This document shows, piece by piece, positions 2,600-55,459 of a stretch of 64,000 bases of DNA. The position numbers and the translations under genes were made by a program. Every line of letters starts with the position of its first letter. Position 1 is the stretch's first letter. Below the pieces are notes generated by a model that was given only the letters and a program-made list of their open reading frames with translations, did no database searches and was not told the DNA's origin. The DNA comes from Rhodospirillaceae bacterium (GTDB lineage: Bacteria > Pseudomonadota > Alphaproteobacteria > Rhodospirillales > Rhodospirillaceae), in the NCBI GenBank assembly GCA_009693785.1, contig SHWP01000002.1, positions 59,128 to 123,127 of the forward strand, given 5' to 3'.

Positions 2600-4935
2600 C
2601 CGCCCGCATGGACAAACCCTTGACCATTGCCATCGTTGGCAACCCGAATTGTGGCAAGACATCGCTCTTCAATGCGCTGACAGGCTCGCACCAAAAAGTT
2701 GGCAATTGGCCGGGCGTGACGGTCGACCGCAAAGAGGGTTATTTCACACATCAAGGCCGCAAGGTCGCGGTAGTCGATTTACCGGGTGTTTATTCGTTGG
2801 CAGTTTCGGGCGAAAGCTCAATCGACGAACGCATCGCTCGCGATTTCATTCTCTCTCGCGAATCCGATCTCGTCGTCAATATTATCGATGCCTCGAATTT
2901 GGAGCGGAACCTCTACCTCACCACTCAGCTGGCCGAGATGGGTGTGCCGATGATTGTTGTCCTGAACATGATGGACGCGGCGCGCGCCAAGGGTCTGACA
3001 ATCGATTTGGCTGCAATACAAGATCAACTTGGCGTAACGGTGGCGGGCGTCGTGGCGACAACGGGCGAGGGGTTAGCCACGCTGAAGAGCATCCTGATCT
3101 TTACCGAACCTTCGGCCAGCATCCCTCGCCTGAGCATCGACTTTGGCGAGGTTGTGAACAAAGAGATCTCAGCTTTGACAGCGATGATCCCTGCGCGAGC
3201 GGGGAACAATCCAGCTTATGCGCGATGGGCCGCGGTCAAATTGCTGGAAGGCGATGCAGGCGTCATAGGTAGCGTGAATGAAGCTGTTCGAAGTGCGGTC
3301 ATGGTATCTCAAAGACGCATCGCGGCCACCGCTAACGAAGATGCGGACATTCTAATCGCCGACCGGCGGTTCACCATGGCGCACGCATTGGTGCAAACCG
3401 CCGTGACGCGGCACGGCATTGCCAGCAGGTCGATCACCGACCGCATTGATGCGGTTGTGCTCAATCGCGTGCTAGGCATCCCGATCTTTCTCGCTGTCAT
3501 GTATGTGATGTTTTTATTCACGATCGATGTCGGTAATGCGTTCATCGATTTCTTCGACATTCTCGCGGGCACCATTCTGGTCGGCGGTGTTGGCCATGTT
3601 TTGAACGCGCTGGGTGCCCCTGCGTGGTTTGTCACCATCTTGGCTGGTGGTGTTGGTGGCGGGATGCAAACCGTGGCGACCTTCATTCCGATCATCGGCT
3701 GTTTGTTCTTGTTCCTATCTGTCCTTGAAGACAGCGGTTATATGGCGCGCGCGGCTTTTGTGATGGACCGGTTCATGCGCGCATTGGGGTTGCCGGGTAA
3801 ATCCTTCGTGCCGATGATGGTGGGCTTTGGCTGCACGGTACCCGCCGTGATGTCGACGCGCACACTCGATAATCACCGCGACCGCGTGCTGACGGCGGTG
3901 ATGTCGCATTTCATGTCGTGCGGCGCGCGGTTGCCGGTTTATGCCTTGTTTGCGGCCGCGTTCTTCCCGGTTGGCGGGCAAAACATTGTTTTCCTGCTCT
4001 ACATTATCGGCTTGGCCTTTGCGGTGGCCACGGGGCTATTGCTGAAAAACACCATTTTGGCCGGACATTCCGCGCCGTTCTTGATGGAACTGCCGCTGTA
4101 TCACCGACCGACATTACGGGGCGTGTTGATCCGCACCTGGGAACGGTTGAAGGCCTTTGTGTTCAAAGCGGGTAAGTTCATCGTGATGGTTGCGGTGGTG
4201 CTGACGTTCCTGAACTCATGGGGCCGCGATGGCAGTTTTGGCAACGAAAACACACAAAACTCCGTGCTCGCGGCGGTTGGTGAAACACTGATCCCGGTTT
4301 TCAAACCCATGGGGATCCGCGAGGACAATTGGCCCGCTGCGGTTGGGCTATTCACCGGGTTGTTTGCCAAGGAAGTCGTCGTGGGCACGCTTGATGCCCT
4401 TTATTCGCAAATGGCTGCGGATGAAGCGGGTGCCGGGGCCCAGAAGCCTGGATTTGATTTTTGGGCGGGTATCGGCAATGCGTTTGCTTCAGTCCCCACT
4501 AATCTCGCGAGCCTTGCCGACCGCCTGCCCGATCCCTTGGGGCTCAATTTGACAATCGCCGAGAATGTAGAAGATGCCGCCGAGAAGCAGGCCGTGACCA
4601 TCAATACCTTCGGCATGATCGCATCGAAGTTTGACGGAGCTATTGGCGCCTTCGCCTATCTCATCGCGATTCTTCTCTACTCGCCATGCATGTCAGCCCT
4701 ATCGGCCTATTACCGCGAGCTTTCGGGGGGATGGACGGCCTTCGTCGCCCTTTACTCGACTGCTTTGGGGTATGGCTTTGGGGTGCTGACCTACCAGATC
4801 GGCACATTCAGCCGCGATCCGGCCACAGCGAGCATTTGGATCGGTGTGATCCTTGCTTTGATTCTGAGTGGCGTGGGAGCCCTCATCATTACCGGGCGGC
4901 GCGGACGTCCGTCTGTCCTGGCTCCGGCCGAGTGA
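2596..4935 (+). CDS. feoB: Ferrous iron transporter B (GTPase-permease)
   Basis: FeoB, inner-membrane ferrous iron transporter of 779 residues, normal length for the family. The N-terminal G domain shows G1 GNPNCGKTS (residues 15-23), G3 DLPG (61-64) and NMMD in the G4 position (124-127). The membrane part starts near residue 295 and carries the Gate segment with MVGFGCTVPAVMSTRTL near residues 408-425, containing the conserved Cys, and a second Gate region with GLFAKEVVVGTL. Coupled by ATGA to feoA and followed after 15 bases by feoC. All landmark motifs are intact, so the protein is probably functional. Confidence 0.97.
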   Translation: MTARMDKPLTIAIVGNPNCGKTSLFNALTGSHQKVGNWPGVTVDRKEGYFTHQGRKVAVVDLPGVYSLAVSGESSIDERIARDFILSRESDLVVNIIDASNLERNLYLTTQLAEMGVPMIVVLNMMDAARAKGLTIDLAAIQDQLGVTVAGVVATTGEGLATLKSILIFTEPSASIPRLSIDFGEVVNKEISALTAMIPARAGNNPAYARWAAVKLLEGDAGVIGSVNEAVRSAVMVSQRRIAATANEDADILIADRRFTMAHALVQTAVTRHGIASRSITDRIDAVVLNRVLGIPIFLAVMYVMFLFTIDVGNAFIDFFDILAGTILVGGVGHVLNALGAPAWFVTILAGGVGGGMQTVATFIPIIGCLFLFLSVLEDSGYMARAAFVMDRFMRALGLPGKSFVPMMVGFGCTVPAVMSTRTLDNHRDRVLTAVMSHFMSCGARLPVYALFAAAFFPVGGQNIVFLLYIIGLAFAVATGLLLKNTILAGHSAPFLMELPLYHRPTLRGVLIRTWERLKAFVFKAGKFIVMVAVVLTFLNSWGRDGSFGNENTQNSVLAAVGETLIPVFKPMGIREDNWPAAVGLFTGLFAKEVVVGTLDALYSQMAADEAGAGAQKPGFDFWAGIGNAFASVPTNLASLADRLPDPLGLNLTIAENVEDAAEKQAVTINTFGMIASKFDGAIGAFAYLIAILLYSPCMSALSAYYRELSGGWTAFVALYSTALGYGFGVLTYQIGTFSRDPATASIWIGVILALILSGVGALIITGRRGRPSVLAPAE

Positions 4936-6894: not shown

Positions 6895-8142
6895 TTACGC
6901 TTTTTTGCCGCCCAACGTCCCGGCATCGTCGCCGTTAACTATGCCCATCGGCTGGTAGGGAATCGTGGGGAACACTTGATCCAGCCGACGCGCACCGTGA
7001 CGTTTGGCCAAGACTTCGCCGATCACGCGGCGGTAGTCGGTCGTGACGTCAAGGTCGCCGTTGAAGAGTTGATTGGGGGCCAGCCCTGGCCAGGTGCCGT
7101 AAATCTTGCCGCCGTTGACGTTGCCGCCTAGCACGAACATGTACCCGCCCGAGCCATGGTCGGTGCCTTGGCTTGCGTTTTCGCGGAAGCGGCGGCCAAA
7201 TTCGGTCATCGTGACGACTGTGGTTTTCGCACGGAAATTCGAGATCTCGCGCCAGAACGCGCCAAGCGAACGGGCTAAATCTGATGCACGAGCATTAAAT
7301 TCAGCCAGGAGGTTGTTGTGGTGGTCCCAACCACCCATGTCGATGTGGGCGACTTCAAGGCCGATATTCATTTTCATCAGCGACGCAAGCGAACGCAACG
7401 ATGTGGTTAGTGCGCCGCCCGGATAGCCGTAGTTGGTATTATCCGTCGCCAAGTTGCGCAGGCCGGTTTGAACCGAGGCAATGGCATCAAGCGTTTGGGT
7501 GGCTGTTTTTTCATAGCCTGTCGTGCCTTTGTTCATAGCACGTATGATATTGGCATTGGCGTCGCCGCCAGAGACCGTAAAGCTACTGGCATTTGAAATT
7601 GCAATAGACCCGTTAAAGCCCAACAGCGATTCCGGATTATTCGTCGACAGCGCGATGGTTCCAAGCTGCGGGCGAGTGCCTGAGAGCGATTTTAAATGGC
7701 GGGTCAACCAGCCATCAGTTGGCGTTAGCTCATCTTGATTGACACCCAACTCCATAAGCTCTTGGCAGGCGAAATGGCTGCGCTCCTGCATGCGCATGCC
7801 AGCGGAATGAACAATGGCCAGGCTCTTGGCATCGTAAAGCGCCTTGAGTTCAGTTGTTGACGGATGGAGGTAAAAATCCACGCCCTGAAGGGTGCCGACG
7901 CCAAGACCAGCATTGTTGCCGCTCGATAACACGCGGATTGTGGGGCGGTTGCTGATGTAGTTAGCGTCGCCAGCGGGGGCGATCATTTGCAGGCCGTCGC
8001 TGCCAAACCTTAAATACAGAACGATAAGGATGTCTTTCGCAGGCGCTTGCTGCGCAAATGCGACCTTAAGCCCCGGGGTGACGGCTGCAAAAACAGCGCC
8101 CGATGTGGCGGTTCGCAGAACTGAGCGGCGGGACAGGTTCAT
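6895..8142 (-). CDS. DUF1501 family protein, Tat-exported
   Basis: DUF1501 protein of 415 residues. The N-terminus MNLSRRSVLRTATSGAVFA is a twin-arginine signal, so the folded protein is probably exported to the periplasm. The body shows LYLRFGSDGLQMIAP near the start, HMDMGGWDHHNN-like AHIDMGGWDHHNN, and TEFGRRFRENASQGTDHGSGG, hallmarks of the sulfatase-like DUF1501 fold with metal-binding His/Asp residues. Start ATG 8142 has CAGGAGCTAACG before it, a good ribosome binding site. It leads a two-gene unit with DUF1800. Substrate is unknown. Confidence 0.92.
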   Translation of the reverse strand: MNLSRRSVLRTATSGAVFAAVTPGLKVAFAQQAPAKDILIVLYLRFGSDGLQMIAPAGDANYISNRPTIRVLSSGNNAGLGVGTLQGVDFYLHPSTTELKALYDAKSLAIVHSAGMRMQERSHFACQELMELGVNQDELTPTDGWLTRHLKSLSGTRPQLGTIALSTNNPESLLGFNGSIAISNASSFTVSGGDANANIIRAMNKGTTGYEKTATQTLDAIASVQTGLRNLATDNTNYGYPGGALTTSLRSLASLMKMNIGLEVAHIDMGGWDHHNNLLAEFNARASDLARSLGAFWREISNFRAKTTVVTMTEFGRRFRENASQGTDHGSGGYMFVLGGNVNGGKIYGTWPGLAPNQLFNGDLDVTTDYRRVIGEVLAKRHGARRLDQVFPTIPYQPMGIVNGDDAGTLGGKKA

Positions 8143-8484: not shown

Positions 8485-11098
8485 TTAGAAGTTATATTGA
8501 CCGGTAAGGCCAAACTCGCGGCCACGCGGCAGTTGCAGTTCCAGGGCATTTTTCGAGTTGCCCGGGTTCTGCGTAAAGCGCAAGGCCGAGGAATCCGCGC
8601 CACGGAAAATTGCGCCCGGCGTCAGGTCGTTGAGCACGTTGTTTGCATAGAGCGTCAGGTTCCAAGCCTCGGTTTCAACCCCGAGCTTCGTGTTCATCAT
8701 GTATTTGTTGCCTGTCCATGACACGTTGTGAACTTCTCCAAACGCCTTGGACCTGTAAGACAAGTCGCCTCGCAGGAACCATTGTGCATCAGCCGCCAGG
8801 TCGTCTTTCCAACTGGCTGAAACCGTACCGGTATGCTTAGGCGCAAGGATGCTGTGCTTGCCCTTGGCGTTGCCGCCATTGGCCAAGGTAAGGTCCTGCG
8901 GAACGCCAGTGAATAGCTCGATCTGCTGGTCGTTGGCTTTCTTAAAGACGTGATCGGCCAACCCGTAGTTGGCTGACAGAGTCAGCTGTTGCGTTGCCCG
9001 AATCGTGCCGTCCAATTCGATCCCCTGTACGCGGCTAGCGCCAGAGTTGGTTTGAATGTTGAAGCCGGACGGGCCATTCGGCGTCAGGATGTTTTGTACG
9101 ACGTTATTGATTTTCTGTTTCTTCCAATCGATGTAAAATACATCGCCATTAAGTGTGGCGCGACCGTCCATCAAGGTCGATTTCACGCCGAGTTCATACA
9201 CGAGATTCTTCTCTTCATCGAAGATCGTTTGGCCCGCGGCCTCAAGCCTCGCGAACTCTGCGTCGGTTGGGCCAGCGGCGGTCTTATTGAACAGAGGCGT
9301 ATTGAAGCCGCCGGGCAACGAACCCACCGCATACGACGCATACACCAATACATCGTCATTAACTTTGTAGTCCACCGACACGCGTGGCGTGAAGCTCTTG
9401 ATCGACGATTGGACTGGCCGCGCTGTCGCGGCGTTAAACGGTATGCGGCGTTTGTCTTGGCTGTAACGAGCTTCGGTGCTCAATTTCAGTGCATCTGTAA
9501 TGTCGTACTGAAGTTGGGCAAACGCGGCTTTGTACTTAATGAAGCTTCGGCTGAAATCGCGGCCATCTTCAAAAAAGAAGGCGCTCGTGACGACGTTTCC
9601 GCCGAGGGTGCGTCCGCGGGTTTTGGCCTTGCGATTGTAATAATAGACGCCCGCTAAACCGCGCAGGCGATCCTGTTGCGGCGAGGCGACTCTGAATTCA
9701 CCTGAGTAATCGTAGTTGATCTCGTAACTTTGAGATCCGCCACTGGTCTCAACAATCGCGGTCGTGCCCGAGACTGGGTTGAGGAGAGGGAGGCGATCAG
9801 CGTCAATATTGTATGACGCTTTGTCGGTGTTGTAAGTCATCTGGGCGATTGAATTCCAGTCGTTGTAATCCCACTGGATGTCCGACGTGTACATGCCGAC
9901 GGTGCGGTAGTTGCCGGGTTTTACGCCGGCACCGTATATCGTCAACGGAACGCCGGTCGCGAACGCGGGTGACGCGAAACTTAGTGCCGCTGGCTGGGCC
10001 GGTGTTGCAAGGGTACGGTCATTGCGAGCGGCTTCCAGCGCAGTAAAGAAATTCCGCAGGGCTGTCTGGTCGTAACGCAGGATTCGTCCAAATGTCGGAC
10101 TGAGGGGGTTGTTGTCCACGGCCTGGATAGCAACGCCATCTACCAGCGCCGGCAAATTGAGATTCGGAGCCAAGCCCCTGATCTTCACTTCGCCGCAAAA
10201 ATAGCTGCGTGCGGTGTTGGGTACGCCCGCATCAATTCCAGGCCGGAAGCAGTTGTTTTTCGACGCCGGAATGTAGACCGAGGCGAATTGGCTATCGTAT
10301 GACTTGTTGTAATCGACCTTAACATTAAATTGTAGGTTTTCGGTGGGCAGGAACCGCAGTTTAGCCGTCACGTCGCGGTTTTCTTCCTTGCCGAGCCTGC
10401 TGTGGTCGCTGCGTGTCGGCACGCTCACGAAGTTGTTCTCCGGCCCAACTGACCTGCCTGTGCCGCCCGCATATTGGTTGCGCCATTGACCGCCATAGTA
10501 CTCCCAGTTCCCTGAGAGGAAATATTGAAGCTTGTTTTCGATAATGGGACCGCGCGCCCATATCGCGCCCTTGTAGTCGCTGTGGCTACCAACGCGTGTT
10601 GTCAGTTGTCCTTCGGCGTCGTCCGAAGGTTGCTTGGTCACGTAGTTAATGGCGCCGCCGAACGCGCCGCGTCCATACAGGGCTGATTGCGGTCCGCGCA
10701 GAACTTCGATGCGTTCTAGCGCGTCCGTCGAGACGGTGCTGATCGATCCGGAAATATAAACGCCGTCCACGAAGAACGACGCCAACACGTCAGAGGATTG
10801 CACGCTTGATTGAGCACGAAGGATGGGGCGGTCAAAACGTCGTCCGAAGCTTTTATCGAATGAAAAATTGGGCGTAAAGTTTTGCAGTTCATATACGCCG
10901 CGGATACCGAGCTCTTGGATGCTGTTGGCAGAGAACGCGGAAATCGATAGTGGAACCTCTTGCAGGTTTTCCTCGCGTTTGCGCGAAGTGACAACGATTT
11001 CCTCGATGGCGAGGTTCTGCGCGGCGGCGAAGTCGGCAAAGCCCGTGGCAAAAAAAAGTCACTGCGCTCGTGGCCAGCAGTGCATGCTTCAACCTCAT
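8485..11098 (-). pseudogene. TonB-dependent outer membrane receptor, frameshifted in a T8 tract
   Basis: TonB-dependent receptor, an outer-membrane beta-barrel for energised uptake. The ORF track begins only at 10803 inside the plug domain, but the minus strand gives a true start at ATG 11098 (GGGGGAGA upstream) with signal peptide MRLKHALLATSAVTFF. At 11050-11057 the coding strand has eight T; with seven T the frame runs on as ATGFADFAAAQ, TonB box IEEIVVTSRKREENLQ and the plug (VDGVYISG, LRGPQSALYGRGAFGGAINY) to the C-terminal LTGQYNF, giving about 870 residues. The C-terminal aromatic residue and last beta strand are intact. So one extra T is the only lesion seen. It may be a sequencing error, a dead gene or a phase-variable switch. 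Ligand unknown; it lies just downstream of a peptide-type ABC transporter. Confidence 0.9.
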
Positions 11099-24252: not shown

Positions 24253-25035
24253 ATGCGTTGGGTTCGTTGGACAATCGTTGCCGTATTAGCGCTGGTGGTC
24301 ATCGCCTATGGGGCGATGGTGCAGCAACAGTTTGCGCGTCATGCCGACGCATCGCCCATCGCGGCGATTGCCGCAACCTCCGATGATAACGTCAAGGTCG
24401 ATGAAGGCCGCTATCTCACGTTCCGGCCGCTGCATGTCAAAGAACGCTTGGGTCTGATTTTTTATCCCGGCGCTTATTGTGATCCGCGCGGCTATGCGCC
24501 GACATTGAAGCCACTGGCGGCGGCGGGCTATCGCGTCATCGTGGTGCCGATGCCATTCGAACTGGCCATTCTGGGAATCGAGCGCGCGGCCGAGGTCCAG
24601 GCCGCAAACCCTGATTTGAAAAACTGGGTGATCATGGGCCACTCGCTTGGCGGTGCATCGGCGTCCGTGTTCGCCAACAAACATGGAGAAACATTGGATG
24701 GCGTGGTGATCTGGGATTCATACCCGCCAACGTTCGCAAGCTTGGCCGACTTTCAAAAGCCGGTGTGGCACATTCATCGCGCGACACCGGATGGCGCGCC
24801 GCCAGAGTCGTTTGTGAAGCAGCGCGGTTTGTTTCCGCGCGACAGCCACTGGGTGCCCGTTCCCGGCGGCATTCACATGAACTTCGGCTCGTTCACAGGC
24901 GGTGGTTATCAAGAGGACTGGGCGCCGAGCATCAGCCGGGCGGACCAACACAAGATCGTTATCGCCGCGACATTGCAAGCGCTGGCCGATATCGAGCGTG
25001 GTGGAAAAGCAGCCCCGGCTGATGACGTGCATTAG
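24253..25035 (+). CDS. Membrane-anchored alpha/beta hydrolase
   Basis: 260 residues from ATG 24253, with AAAGGTT before it; the track start at 24202 lies inside the NmrA gene. Residues 1-22 (MRWVRWTIVAVLALVVIAYGAM) form a membrane anchor, so the catalytic part faces the periplasm. GHSLGG is the nucleophile elbow, and a D(S)YPP and GGIHMNFG supply the likely Asp and His of the triad. The domain resembles the alpha/beta hydrolase group that includes PF12695. Substrate unknown. Starts 5 bases after the NmrA-like stop. Confidence 0.82.
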   Translation: MRWVRWTIVAVLALVVIAYGAMVQQQFARHADASPIAAIAATSDDNVKVDEGRYLTFRPLHVKERLGLIFYPGAYCDPRGYAPTLKPLAAAGYRVIVVPMPFELAILGIERAAEVQAANPDLKNWVIMGHSLGGASASVFANKHGETLDGVVIWDSYPPTFASLADFQKPVWHIHRATPDGAPPESFVKQRGLFPRDSHWVPVPGGIHMNFGSFTGGGYQEDWAPSISRADQHKIVIAATLQALADIERGGKAAPADDVH

Positions 25036-25050
25036 CCACGCGTCGTCGCT

Positions 25051-25136
25051 TCACGTTTCGCATCGCGTCATACCGGACATGAATAATCATGCCGCTGCAG
25101 TATATCCGCGCCTGTTAAAAACCCTGTTATAACAGG
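25051..25136. repeat. Dispersed intergenic repeat, copy 1
   Basis: A 25-base block ending in CGCGTCATACCG (25051-25075) matches 54756-54780 at 22 of 25 positions. It is followed 35 bases later by CCTGTTAAAAA and the perfect palindrome CCTGTTATAACAGG (25123-25136); the second copy also has a CCTGT...AACAGG element. No transposase is near. Confidence 0.55.
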
Positions 25137-25258
25137 CGGAACAGGTGCCAGCCGACGGCCTTGCCGTCTGGCCAATAGACGGCGCAATTCAGCTCAAGCT
25201 ATAGTCCTGCCACGCGGCGGCAACTTGGACCGCGACATCGCCTAGATCCGGAAGCATC

Positions 25259-26029
25259 GTGGCCCCACCCTCATCGTCAAATGTCTGGTCCGAGATTCGC
25301 GAGCGGGCAACCTTTGTTGTGGTGGTGGCGCTCACAACCGCATGGGCGGTGATCGTGCTGGCCTACCTCTCGAAACTTGGCGCATCGGCACTCATGCAAT
25401 TACCCGTCGGCGACATGGCGGCCTTGCTGGTGGCCATATCGGCGCCCGTGGTGGGGTTGTGGCTGGTGGCTGGCGTGCTCGGCCAGCGTCATGAACTTGC
25501 GAGCCTGCGGCGCAGGTTGGGCGAGATCACATCGCAAGCCCGCAACAGCATGCAACACACCGAAGTGCAGTCGCGCGCGATTTTGGAAATGGAGTCACAG
25601 CTCAAACGAAGTGCGGCCGCGGGCACACGCACACTCGTGCTGCAAGATCTGGCCGCACAGGCTGCCATCGTGGGCGAACGGCTTGGCATCATGAAAAGCG
25701 ATGCCATCGATATGGCCTGGGCGCGGTTTGGCTCGGGGGATGTCGGGGCTTTTGTGCAGCCGCTGATTAGTTATCAGGGGCAACATCCCGACCTGGCCGA
25801 ACGCATGGGCGATGCGGTGGTGCGCGATCACCCCGCGCGTGCTGCACTGACCGGGTTCATCCGCCGCTATGACCGTCTGATCGCAGCGCTGGCCGATGAC
25901 AAGCTCGCCCAAGAAACGCTGGAAGAGGGACCCTTGGGCCGTGCGGTCAGTTTATTCAGAACCGCCGAGGCCCGAGCGCAATCCATACCAGCCGATGCAG
26001 CTAACCCAGCAGGCGAGGCCTCGGCATAA
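25259..26029 (+). CDS. Hypothetical inner-membrane protein
   Basis: 256 residues from GTG 25259, with GGAAG before it. Residues about 18-40 (ATFVVVVALTTAWAVIVLAYL) and 52-74 (AALLVAISAPVVGLWLVAGVL) are membrane segments; the rest (residues 78-240) looks soluble and helical, with QRHELASLRRRLGEITSQ probably a coiled coil. I recognise no family. Four bases separate it from the next gene, so the two are coupled. Confidence 0.75.
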   Translation: MAPPSSSNVWSEIRERATFVVVVALTTAWAVIVLAYLSKLGASALMQLPVGDMAALLVAISAPVVGLWLVAGVLGQRHELASLRRRLGEITSQARNSMQHTEVQSRAILEMESQLKRSAAAGTRTLVLQDLAAQAAIVGERLGIMKSDAIDMAWARFGSGDVGAFVQPLISYQGQHPDLAERMGDAVVRDHPARAALTGFIRRYDRLIAALADDKLAQETLEEGPLGRAVSLFRTAEARAQSIPADAANPAGEASA

Positions 26030-54343: not shown

Positions 54344-55042
54344 AAGACCTTCTTCTCCCAGATTCGCCTCAATAAGTCAGTGCTCCCATTTCTGACCGCG
54401 AACCCGTGAAAGAAGATCGGGGCGATTCAGAGGCAGGTTTTCCGTCCGCATGTTGCGGGGGAGCGGAATGCTATCTGCAGGCATAACTTTACATAGCGTT
54501 TTTCTGCTTCACGATCAACTAGATAAGGCAAAAAATTCCGGAAGATTCTAAACCTACAAGCATGCCCATGATTTTTCCCAGACCGCCCCGGTATGCTTAT
54601 TCATATTTTTTTTCGAACTATCTCTTTGCGGCATGAATAACACCTGCCTTGAGCCTAAACATGAGCGCGACCTAACTGTCGCTCTCCATCATTCGCGGCC
54701 TGCCAATTCAACCATCTGTTCGTGTTGCTATTCTTCGCTGGCGCAAATCGCTTCCTCACGCTTCGCTCCGCGTCATACCGCCTCTGCATAAAAATACCTC
54801 AGCGGCATAACAAGCCTTCGCGTTCACCAGGCGGGCCTGTATTTTTCCTGTAAGAACAGGGATACAAAATATTTTCCACGGCTGACGTGACGCAGGCTTG
54901 GCCAATCAGGGGCGCGAATTTTTCATGACCTTGCGCTCGGGTTTTCCCCAACATTCTCCATGCTCTTCGGCAATTTTTCTTGGCTGTGGCTTATACAGCG
55001 CGCATCATCATGGCTGATGATTCGTGATGATGCAGGATGGTC
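54344..55042. other. Gene-poor AT-rich region
   Basis: About 700 bases with no convincing gene on either strand. It contains copy 2 of the dispersed intergenic repeat (54756-54860) and several T-runs. It must include the promoter of the cytochrome c operon. No RNA gene was recognised. Confidence 0.5.
54756..54860. repeat. Dispersed intergenic repeat, copy 2
   Basis: Block 54756-54780 ends in CGCGTCATACCG and matches 25051-25075 at 22 of 25 bases. After 55 bases follows CCTGTATTTTTCCTGTAAG and AACAGG (54836-54860), resembling CCTGTTAAAAA plus CCTGTTATAACAGG in copy 1. Confidence 0.55.
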
Positions 55043-55459
55043 ATGAGACGTGCCTTTGAAATTTTTCTAGTGATGGCTTTGGTTCTTGATGTTGGCGCGG
55101 CCATCGCTGCCGAGCCGCCAGCAATCCCGCGCGATGTGCTCGCTAAGGCCGATTACGTGAAGGGCCGCGCTGCGTTCCAAAGCCGTTGCAGTGCTTGCCA
55201 CGCTCTTGCAGAAGGCTCAGCCGATCTTGCTGGCCCCGCGCTGTTTGGCATGTTCAAGCGCACCGTGGGCACTAAGCCCGGATTCGATTTTTCACCAACC
55301 CTGAAAAAAGCGGGGCTTACTTGGACGCCTGCGTACTTGGCCGCGTGGCTGGCCGACCCCAAGGGTTACTTGCCTGACAACAACATGATGATCCCCGAAG
55401 CCGTGCCCGAACGCGACCGGGTGAACATGATCTCGTTCATGATGGTGCCACCCGGATGA
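55043..55459 (+). CDS. Class I cytochrome c
   Basis: 138 residues from ATG 55043 (AGGA just upstream; the track uses ATG 55037). The signal peptide (FEIFLVMALVLDVGAAIAAE) sends it to the periplasm. The haem motif CSACH is at residues 49-53 and an NMMIPEAVP segment near the C-terminus supplies a Met ligand. Its stop overlaps the next start in ATGA (55456-55459), so it is coupled to a YdeP-type molybdoenzyme. Probably an electron carrier for a redox reaction, but the partner enzyme has no export signal. Confidence 0.93.
   Translation: MRRAFEIFLVMALVLDVGAAIAAEPPAIPRDVLAKADYVKGRAAFQSRCSACHALAEGSADLAGPALFGMFKRTVGTKPGFDFSPTLKKAGLTWTPAYLAAWLADPKGYLPDNNMMIPEAVPERDRVNMISFMMVPPG

Follow-up and report, generated by a model that had tools for sequence, protein, structure and literature searches.

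In the account of Di Nocera et al. (2013, PMC3733652), the CGTC-tagged REPs of alpha-Proteobacteria are small palindromes, often arranged as dimers or mosaics, in intergenic DNA; they lie mostly in convergent or codirectional gaps, have no linked transposase, and carry a CGTC or similar tag preceding a stem that starts with AT. The repeat described here, from an uncultured Rhodospirillaceae bacterium, is alike in these respects, the tag perhaps included. Its unit, however, is ATACCGC-N-GCGGTAT with a CGTC or CATC tag, a 7-bp stem, a one-base loop and no CCA tail, whereas the published repeats have a stem of 8-9 bp, a loop of 4-5 bases and a CCA tail. The tag before ATACCG is CGTC in 14, CATC in 11 and CCTC in 3 of 72 occurrences, many of which are internal units. 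Despite the resemblance, stem, loop and tail do not match, and the repeat is therefore not filed under CGTC-tagged REPs. The available text on these REPs (PMC3733652) yielded no description of a CCTGTT hairpin with a tandem arm or of a parS cargo, both found in the present repeat. Ordinary TGTC-type REPs (TGTCATTCCCGC..GCGGGAATCCA) are also present in the home genome (L085, L089 and L090; also L006 and L041), and one pair of them adjoins a parS-bearing copy.

RAYT-mobilised GTAG REPs, REPINs and BIMEs are similar mosaics of palindromic units, present in dozens of copies at 3' ends; unlike them, the home repeat has no GTAG tag. A linked transposase, which the first-pass annotation had proposed to look for, was not found for the repeat. 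The sole Y1/RAYT-like gene of the genome bears its own unrelated palindrome, and a link to RAYT was rejected; this transposase gene (L061, G000:C6:39856-40182) is flanked by three copies of TTATGTACCCGGTACATAA. The CIR of Caulobacter (Chen and Shapiro 2003, cited in PMC10969869), compared by description, are long and strictly intergenic alpha-Proteobacterial repeats like ours; they are associated with CcrM (GANTC) sites, and of the parS-bearing modules of the home repeat only about one in two contains GANTC.

The parS cargo resembles the chromosomal parS of ParABS systems in being a 16-bp palindrome, in having the canonical mnmG-rsmG flank and in the presence of an intact ParB. The mnmG-rsmG-parAB region is the usual parS locus of alpha-Proteobacteria. 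Chromosomal parS sites normally number 2-5 and are clustered in this family (most of its other genomes have such numbers, clustered where listed), in contrast to the 15 extra sites carried here by a dispersed repeat.

Two copies in the window

The window is the whole stretch of 64,000 nucleotides that was analysed. A 25-base block and a palindromic element had been noticed twice in it, in the same order and in gene-free DNA. The block is real: 25051-25075 matches 54756-54780 in 22 of 25 positions, and the best other 25-mer of the window, on either strand, has fewer than 18 of 25 matches to it. The palindrome CCTGTTATAACAGG was confirmed at 25123-25136, and its counterpart in copy 2 is CCTGTAAGAACAGG at 54847-54860. 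Both copies are intergenic by gene calls and show an identical order of elements, and their end-to-end alignment reaches a local score of 54 (40 at the best unrelated place in the window). Their boundaries had been drawn only roughly, as the conserved parts span 25060-25146 in copy 1 and 54770-54863 in copy 2. The 25-base block is partly flank, and only its second half (approximately GCRTCATACCG and a few preceding bases) is common to most of the family. Copy 1 consists of modules L and M, and copy 2 of L and M-prime:

24253..25035, + strand: called gene upstream of copy 1, stopping ~25 bp before module L (gene calling); the product has a GHSLGG motif and appears alpha/beta-hydrolase-like, as read from sequence
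25060..25107, + strand: module L of copy 1, GCATCGCGTCATACCGGACATGAATAATCATGCCGCTGCAGTAT, a degenerate ATACCGCNGCGGTAT palindrome unit (alignment A1, 21 copies)
25110..25146, + strand: module M hairpin of copy 1, GCCTGTTAAAAACCCTGTTATAACAGGCGGAACAGGT, with arms 1, 2 and 3 and the tandem arm 4 (alignment, arm pairing)
25123..25136, + strand: the 14-bp palindrome CCTGTTATAACAGG, made up of module M arms 2 and 3 (sequence)
25259..26029, + strand: called gene downstream of copy 1, codirectional (gene calling)
54770..54811, + strand: module L of copy 2, GCGTCATACCGCCTCTGCATAAAAATACCTCAGCGGCATA (model R1 match G000:C38:113893-113961)
54821..54863, + strand: module M-prime of copy 2, CGTTCACCAGGCGGGCCTGTATTTTTCCTGTAAGAACAGGGAT, the second subtype (also in L032-L036, L038, L039 and L043)
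55037..55459, + strand: called gene downstream of copy 2, with a CxxCH motif, cytochrome-c-like by sequence (gene calling)

A third short match follows both copies (25172-25191, GGCCAATAGACGGCGCAATT; 54900-54920, GGCCAATCAGGGGCGCGAATTT) and was not noticed in other copies of the repeat.

Copy number and modular structure

The genome-wide search suggested by the first-pass annotation was run on the home assembly of this bacterium (2,949,105 bases, or 2.95 Mb, in 72 contigs; 86% complete). BLASTN with each window copy and a model search detected about 45 dispersed intergenic copies, with the order of modules conserved; model R1 (L+M) identifies ~42 distinct places at E <=0.001 and ~45 altogether. 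The lack of further copies and of a conserved order had been named as evidence against a repeat, and both further copies and conserved order were found. The count of two copies thus holds for the window, and the family is far larger genome-wide.

A full copy is a mosaic of ATACCG-type palindromes, a CCTGTT/AACAGG hairpin that has a third arm in tandem, and a further module that ends in parS. The palindromic unit has the form CRTC-ATACCGC-N-GCGGTAT, imperfectly kept, and the hairpin the form CCTGTT...AACAGG...AACAGG. The consensus of module L is tgcrctGCRTCATACCGssCGTGAATAAT-n-ATACCGCAGCGGTAT, that of module M is GCCTGWTAAAAACCCTGTTATAWCAGGCGGAACAGGC, and that of the second subtype, M-prime, is CGTTCACCAGGCGGGCCTGTATTTTTCCTGTTATAACAGGGAT(AACAGG). 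Module R (TGCRCTGCRTCATACCGCAGCGGTGTAGATTTCGACYCGCTCAATTGTTCCACGTGGAACAATT), present in about a third of the copies, terminates in TGTTCCACGTGGAACA, which is a parS site. Some copies consist of module M only, while others replace the end of R with a further repeated stretch.

In several copies this further stretch (CTTCGGACTGCGCGG / GCTAAGCTCGTGGCCTTCGGCC; CCGGGGGAT lies close by) takes the place of the R end or comes after it, and it is itself joined to parS; it was seen in L081 (~6900-7060), L085 (~7970-8120), L091 (~4390-4470) and L084 (~9710-9790). Copies with M and without L (L017, L019, L023, L036, L043) tend to have a CCCGTCATTCACA-like stretch and a C run (TCCCCACAACTCCCGTCATTCACA) 40-50 bp upstream, perhaps another module. 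Copy L044 (C14:45779) has a similar gene on either side, the two being tandem paralogues (MARPHIEPFVDRDVGFKK...).

The elements are 100-220 bp long, and their ends vary among copies. Their size, intergenic position and the empty sites of relatives described below would also suit a classical MITE, that is, a deletion derivative of an insertion sequence, bounded by terminal inverted repeats and mobilised by a DDE transposase. The MITE-like reading of the first-pass annotation, taken strictly, was not borne out: no terminal inverted repeats were recognised in the aligned copies, nor any target duplication, which few copy boundaries and few empty sites were sharp enough to reveal; the ends differ from copy to copy and no related insertion sequence was found. 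We consider a MITE origin very improbable.

Gene context and empty sites

Gene calls were made with a hexamer-based caller trained on the window, and both neighbours were called for 37 copies. Twenty of these copies lie between convergent genes, 13 between codirectional and 4 between divergent ones, which places 33 of the 37 at a 3' end. As background, the sampled DNA has 170 gaps that measure 100 bp or more, 23 of which (13.5%) are convergent, and the excess is significant (binomial p ~6e-9; 9e-7 with length weighting). This distribution bears on the proposal that the repeat is a regulator site. The four CCTG/CAGG half-sites are spaced near-helically, by 12, 10 and 9 bp, as could be expected of operators for a DNA-binding regulator. 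However, divergent gaps hold just 4 of the 37 copies, the placement is at 3' ends, copies are numerous, orthologous sites are empty, and the repeat is species-specific and forms a mosaic with other modules. Operators are therefore a scarcely credible explanation.

Comparison with relatives distinguishes occupied from empty sites. At L018 about 220 bp separate the genes in the home genome, whereas the stop codons are 8 and 5 bp apart in two relatives, and the sites of L003, L006 and L082 are empty in one or both relatives. Elsewhere relatives carry an element of their own subtype: behind lpd (L036) and ftsK (L043), genes named from their translations, and at L031, the site of window copy 2, where the orthologous gap in G009 is occupied by G009's own type. 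The sites behind ftsK and lpd are filled in three species, each with its own subtype. Copies are therefore gained and lost, and preferred positions are either used again or homogenised; the occupancy behind ftsK and lpd fits in-place homogenisation or selected 3' hairpins as well as it fits repeated insertion.

Hairpin arms in related genomes

The home genome has 20 occurrences of the palindrome ATACCGCNGCGGTAT; of the four other genomes of the genus, three have 4, 1 and 7 and the remaining one has 0. The palindrome is present in 4 of the 5 genomes of the genus and in 0 of 68 genomes of the family's other genera. BLASTN with one full copy against 73 genomes of the taxonomic family recovered the home genome only, and the subtypes of sister species were detected only by searches with the shorter palindrome and the models. 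An exact-pattern scan of GTDB contigs for the core of module M gave two matches (L062 and L063). Both lie within a transporter-like gene in AT-rich genomes, have the same sequence around them and were judged to be due to chance.

In G006 and G009 the hairpins next to the palindrome keep this layout but differ in the sequence of their arms. They read GCCTGTTAAT..ATTAACAGGC.GG.AACAGGC, GCTTGTTAAT..ATTAACAAGC.AT.AACAAGC, CCAGTAAA..TTTAACTGG.TGG.AACTGG and CGGGTAAA..TTTACCGG.TGA.AACCGG. In an alignment of 19 hairpins, 92.6% of cells are paired between arms 1 and 3 and 96.8% between arms 1 and 4, percentages favoured by the choice of these sequences for their hairpin look. Shifting the partner arm abolishes the pairing. 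The covariation of arms 1 and 3 is 0.344 (0.160 shuffled) and that of arms 1 and 4 is 0.430 (0.183 shuffled), values reached in 0 of 500 shuffles with kinship left in the data. The informative changes, in which both sides are altered, are CCTG to CTTG, CCAG and CGGG. Therefore, the three arms change together between species.

Single-strand folding is far above shuffles for the G006 copy, for one G009 copy and for L003, mildly better for window copy 1, and no better for window copy 2 and the G009 copy L124. Hairpins of this kind could be selected at RNA 3' ends, as bidirectional terminators or mRNA 3' stabilisers kept uniform by gene conversion within species, and the bias to convergent gaps, the covarying arms and the filling of the ftsK and lpd 3' positions in three species would all agree with this. 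We nevertheless regard such selection as an unlikely explanation of the family: the hairpins have no U-tract, the two copies named last fold no better than shuffles, a search of the elements against Rfam gave no match, several sites in relatives with the same genes lack the element, and the ATACCG palindromes and the parS module would be left unexplained.

parS sites carried by the repeat

Seventeen parS sites with at most 2 mismatches to TGTTCCACGTGGAACA were found in the home genome, and 0 with the reversed control. They are 16-bp palindromes of the TGTTYCACGTGRAACA kind, and the canonical site shares its spelling with repeat-borne ones. Two sites form the canonical pair (C40:113479 and 113552, 73 bp apart) between mnmG and rsmG, beside parA-parB, as these genes are identified by reading their translations; G006 and G009 have a counterpart pair, likewise 73 bp apart. 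All 15 non-canonical parS-like sites are in copies of the repeat, 14 of them in or just beyond L-M-R copies and one in a solo R (C54:13021).

The preservation of these sites was examined with a search that used only the flank, with no parS letters. It recovered 11 repeat copies and the canonical site, with parS directly abutting in each, and in addition the C13 copy, in which another stretch separates the flank from parS, as well as two weak matches that are probably chance. The intactness of parS is therefore not merely an effect of the search. Over the 11 copies, 6 of the 176 cells of parS differ from the consensus, mostly at the tolerated fifth and twelfth bases, compared with 93 of 440 in the preceding 40 bp.

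A stretch like ATCCACAGG occurs ~10 bp after parS in L003, L004, L010, L012, L015, L020 and the C13 copy (L084); it resembles the end of a DnaA box and could either belong to the captured piece or have arisen by chance. A genome of another genus of the same family, G044 (L100-L114), has 14 single parS sites (TGTTTCACGTGAAACA) on 14 contigs and a canonical cluster of three. The common flank of these dispersed sites is just a few bases (~GTAATC before parS), with no longer repeat, and G044 is an independent case of dispersed parS.

The presence of parS in all 11 copies found by their directly adjoining flank, the rarity of departures within it and the G044 sites would be in keeping with a selected array, in which dispersed ParB/SMC loading organises the chromosome and the repeat is a mere vehicle. 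However, the copies may just be recent, those without parS outnumber the parS-bearing ones two to one, and in Caulobacter extra parS sites outside the origin region are harmful, worst at mid-arm and best tolerated within ~500 kb of the origin (PMC5815017). We thus find it improbable that such an array accounts for the repeat.

The chromosomal distribution is relevant to the same comparison. The repeat-borne sites occupy 15 places on 14 contigs, none of them the contig with parAB. In a query with concatenated genes, the flanking genes of L003 and L015 lie 210 and 148 kb from the canonical parS on a 530-kb contig of G006, and those of L006, L011, L020, L021 and L082 map to other G006 contigs. 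If gene order is conserved, the repeat-borne sites would thus not be confined to the immediate origin region. Placement of the copies relative to the origin on the complete genome G029, with 27 concatenated gene fragments as the query, found too few flanking genes conserved.

Proposed direction of capture

The flank of the second canonical parS, TTTCGAGTCGCTCAATTG, is the same as that of module R. The flank is conserved at the canonical site of G009 (TTTCGGGTCGCTCGATTG-parS), so that it belongs to the chromosomal locus and the repeat has probably acquired it from there, and not the reverse; transfer from the canonical site to the repeat appears the likelier direction. The TGTTCCACGTGGAACA spelling is rare, being found in 2 of 226 genomes of the order, with 9 of its 10 occurrences in the home genome and one in the other. 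It is used by both canonical sites and by 7 repeat copies, and points to ongoing exchange between canonical and repeat-borne sites or to common descent. The association of the repeat with parS predates the home species, as G009 has an exact parS 16 bp from the palindrome (L123) and G006 a one-mismatch site near a copy (L120). The ParB protein is intact and has a recognition helix similar to the one in relatives using TGTTTCACGTGAAACA; therefore no new ParB specificity need be assumed.

Discussion

The repeat is REP/BIME-like and non-autonomous in its behaviour, as indicated by the bias to convergent gene ends, the covariation of hairpin arms and the empty sites in relatives. The REP-like label of the first-pass annotation therefore suits it, being a short palindromic mosaic in dozens of intergenic copies. 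Neither window copy contains parS, so the window alone gave no view of this cargo.

We consider it probable, taking the account as a whole, that this is a genus-restricted REP/BIME-like mosaic spread by way of its hairpins, one subfamily of which disperses a captured parS. The repeat would insert, or be retained, right behind stop codons, chiefly between convergent genes, where the cost is presumably lowest. The copies would most likely spread in trans by an enzyme acting on single-stranded hairpins, an enzyme that may have been lost or not recognised. In the home species one subfamily would have acquired the chromosomal parS together with ~20 bp of flanking mnmG-rsmG sequence, and distributed it to 15 or more places. 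We infer from the common flank and the site sequences that the repeat captured parS and spread it, parS most likely being a recent passenger to which ParB probably binds. ParB would then probably be able to load at many dispersed positions, with whatever effect on segregation this may have. That the repeat captured a centromere site and dispersed working ParB loading sites, and that the cell tolerates or uses dispersed parS, is plausible, and we put it forward tentatively.

The kind of repeat is familiar; its parS on about 15 copies is unexpected. No literature linking REP-type repeats with parS was found in a search concentrated on papers outside subscription. The family is a clear example of hairpin arms that change together between sister species. 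The expansion of bacterial centromere regions is an open question in work on Caulobacter parS (PMC5815017), for which a parS-carrying repeat would offer a concrete mechanism and a natural test case. If the proposed account is true, such a repeat would be a natural route for centromere sites to multiply and move.
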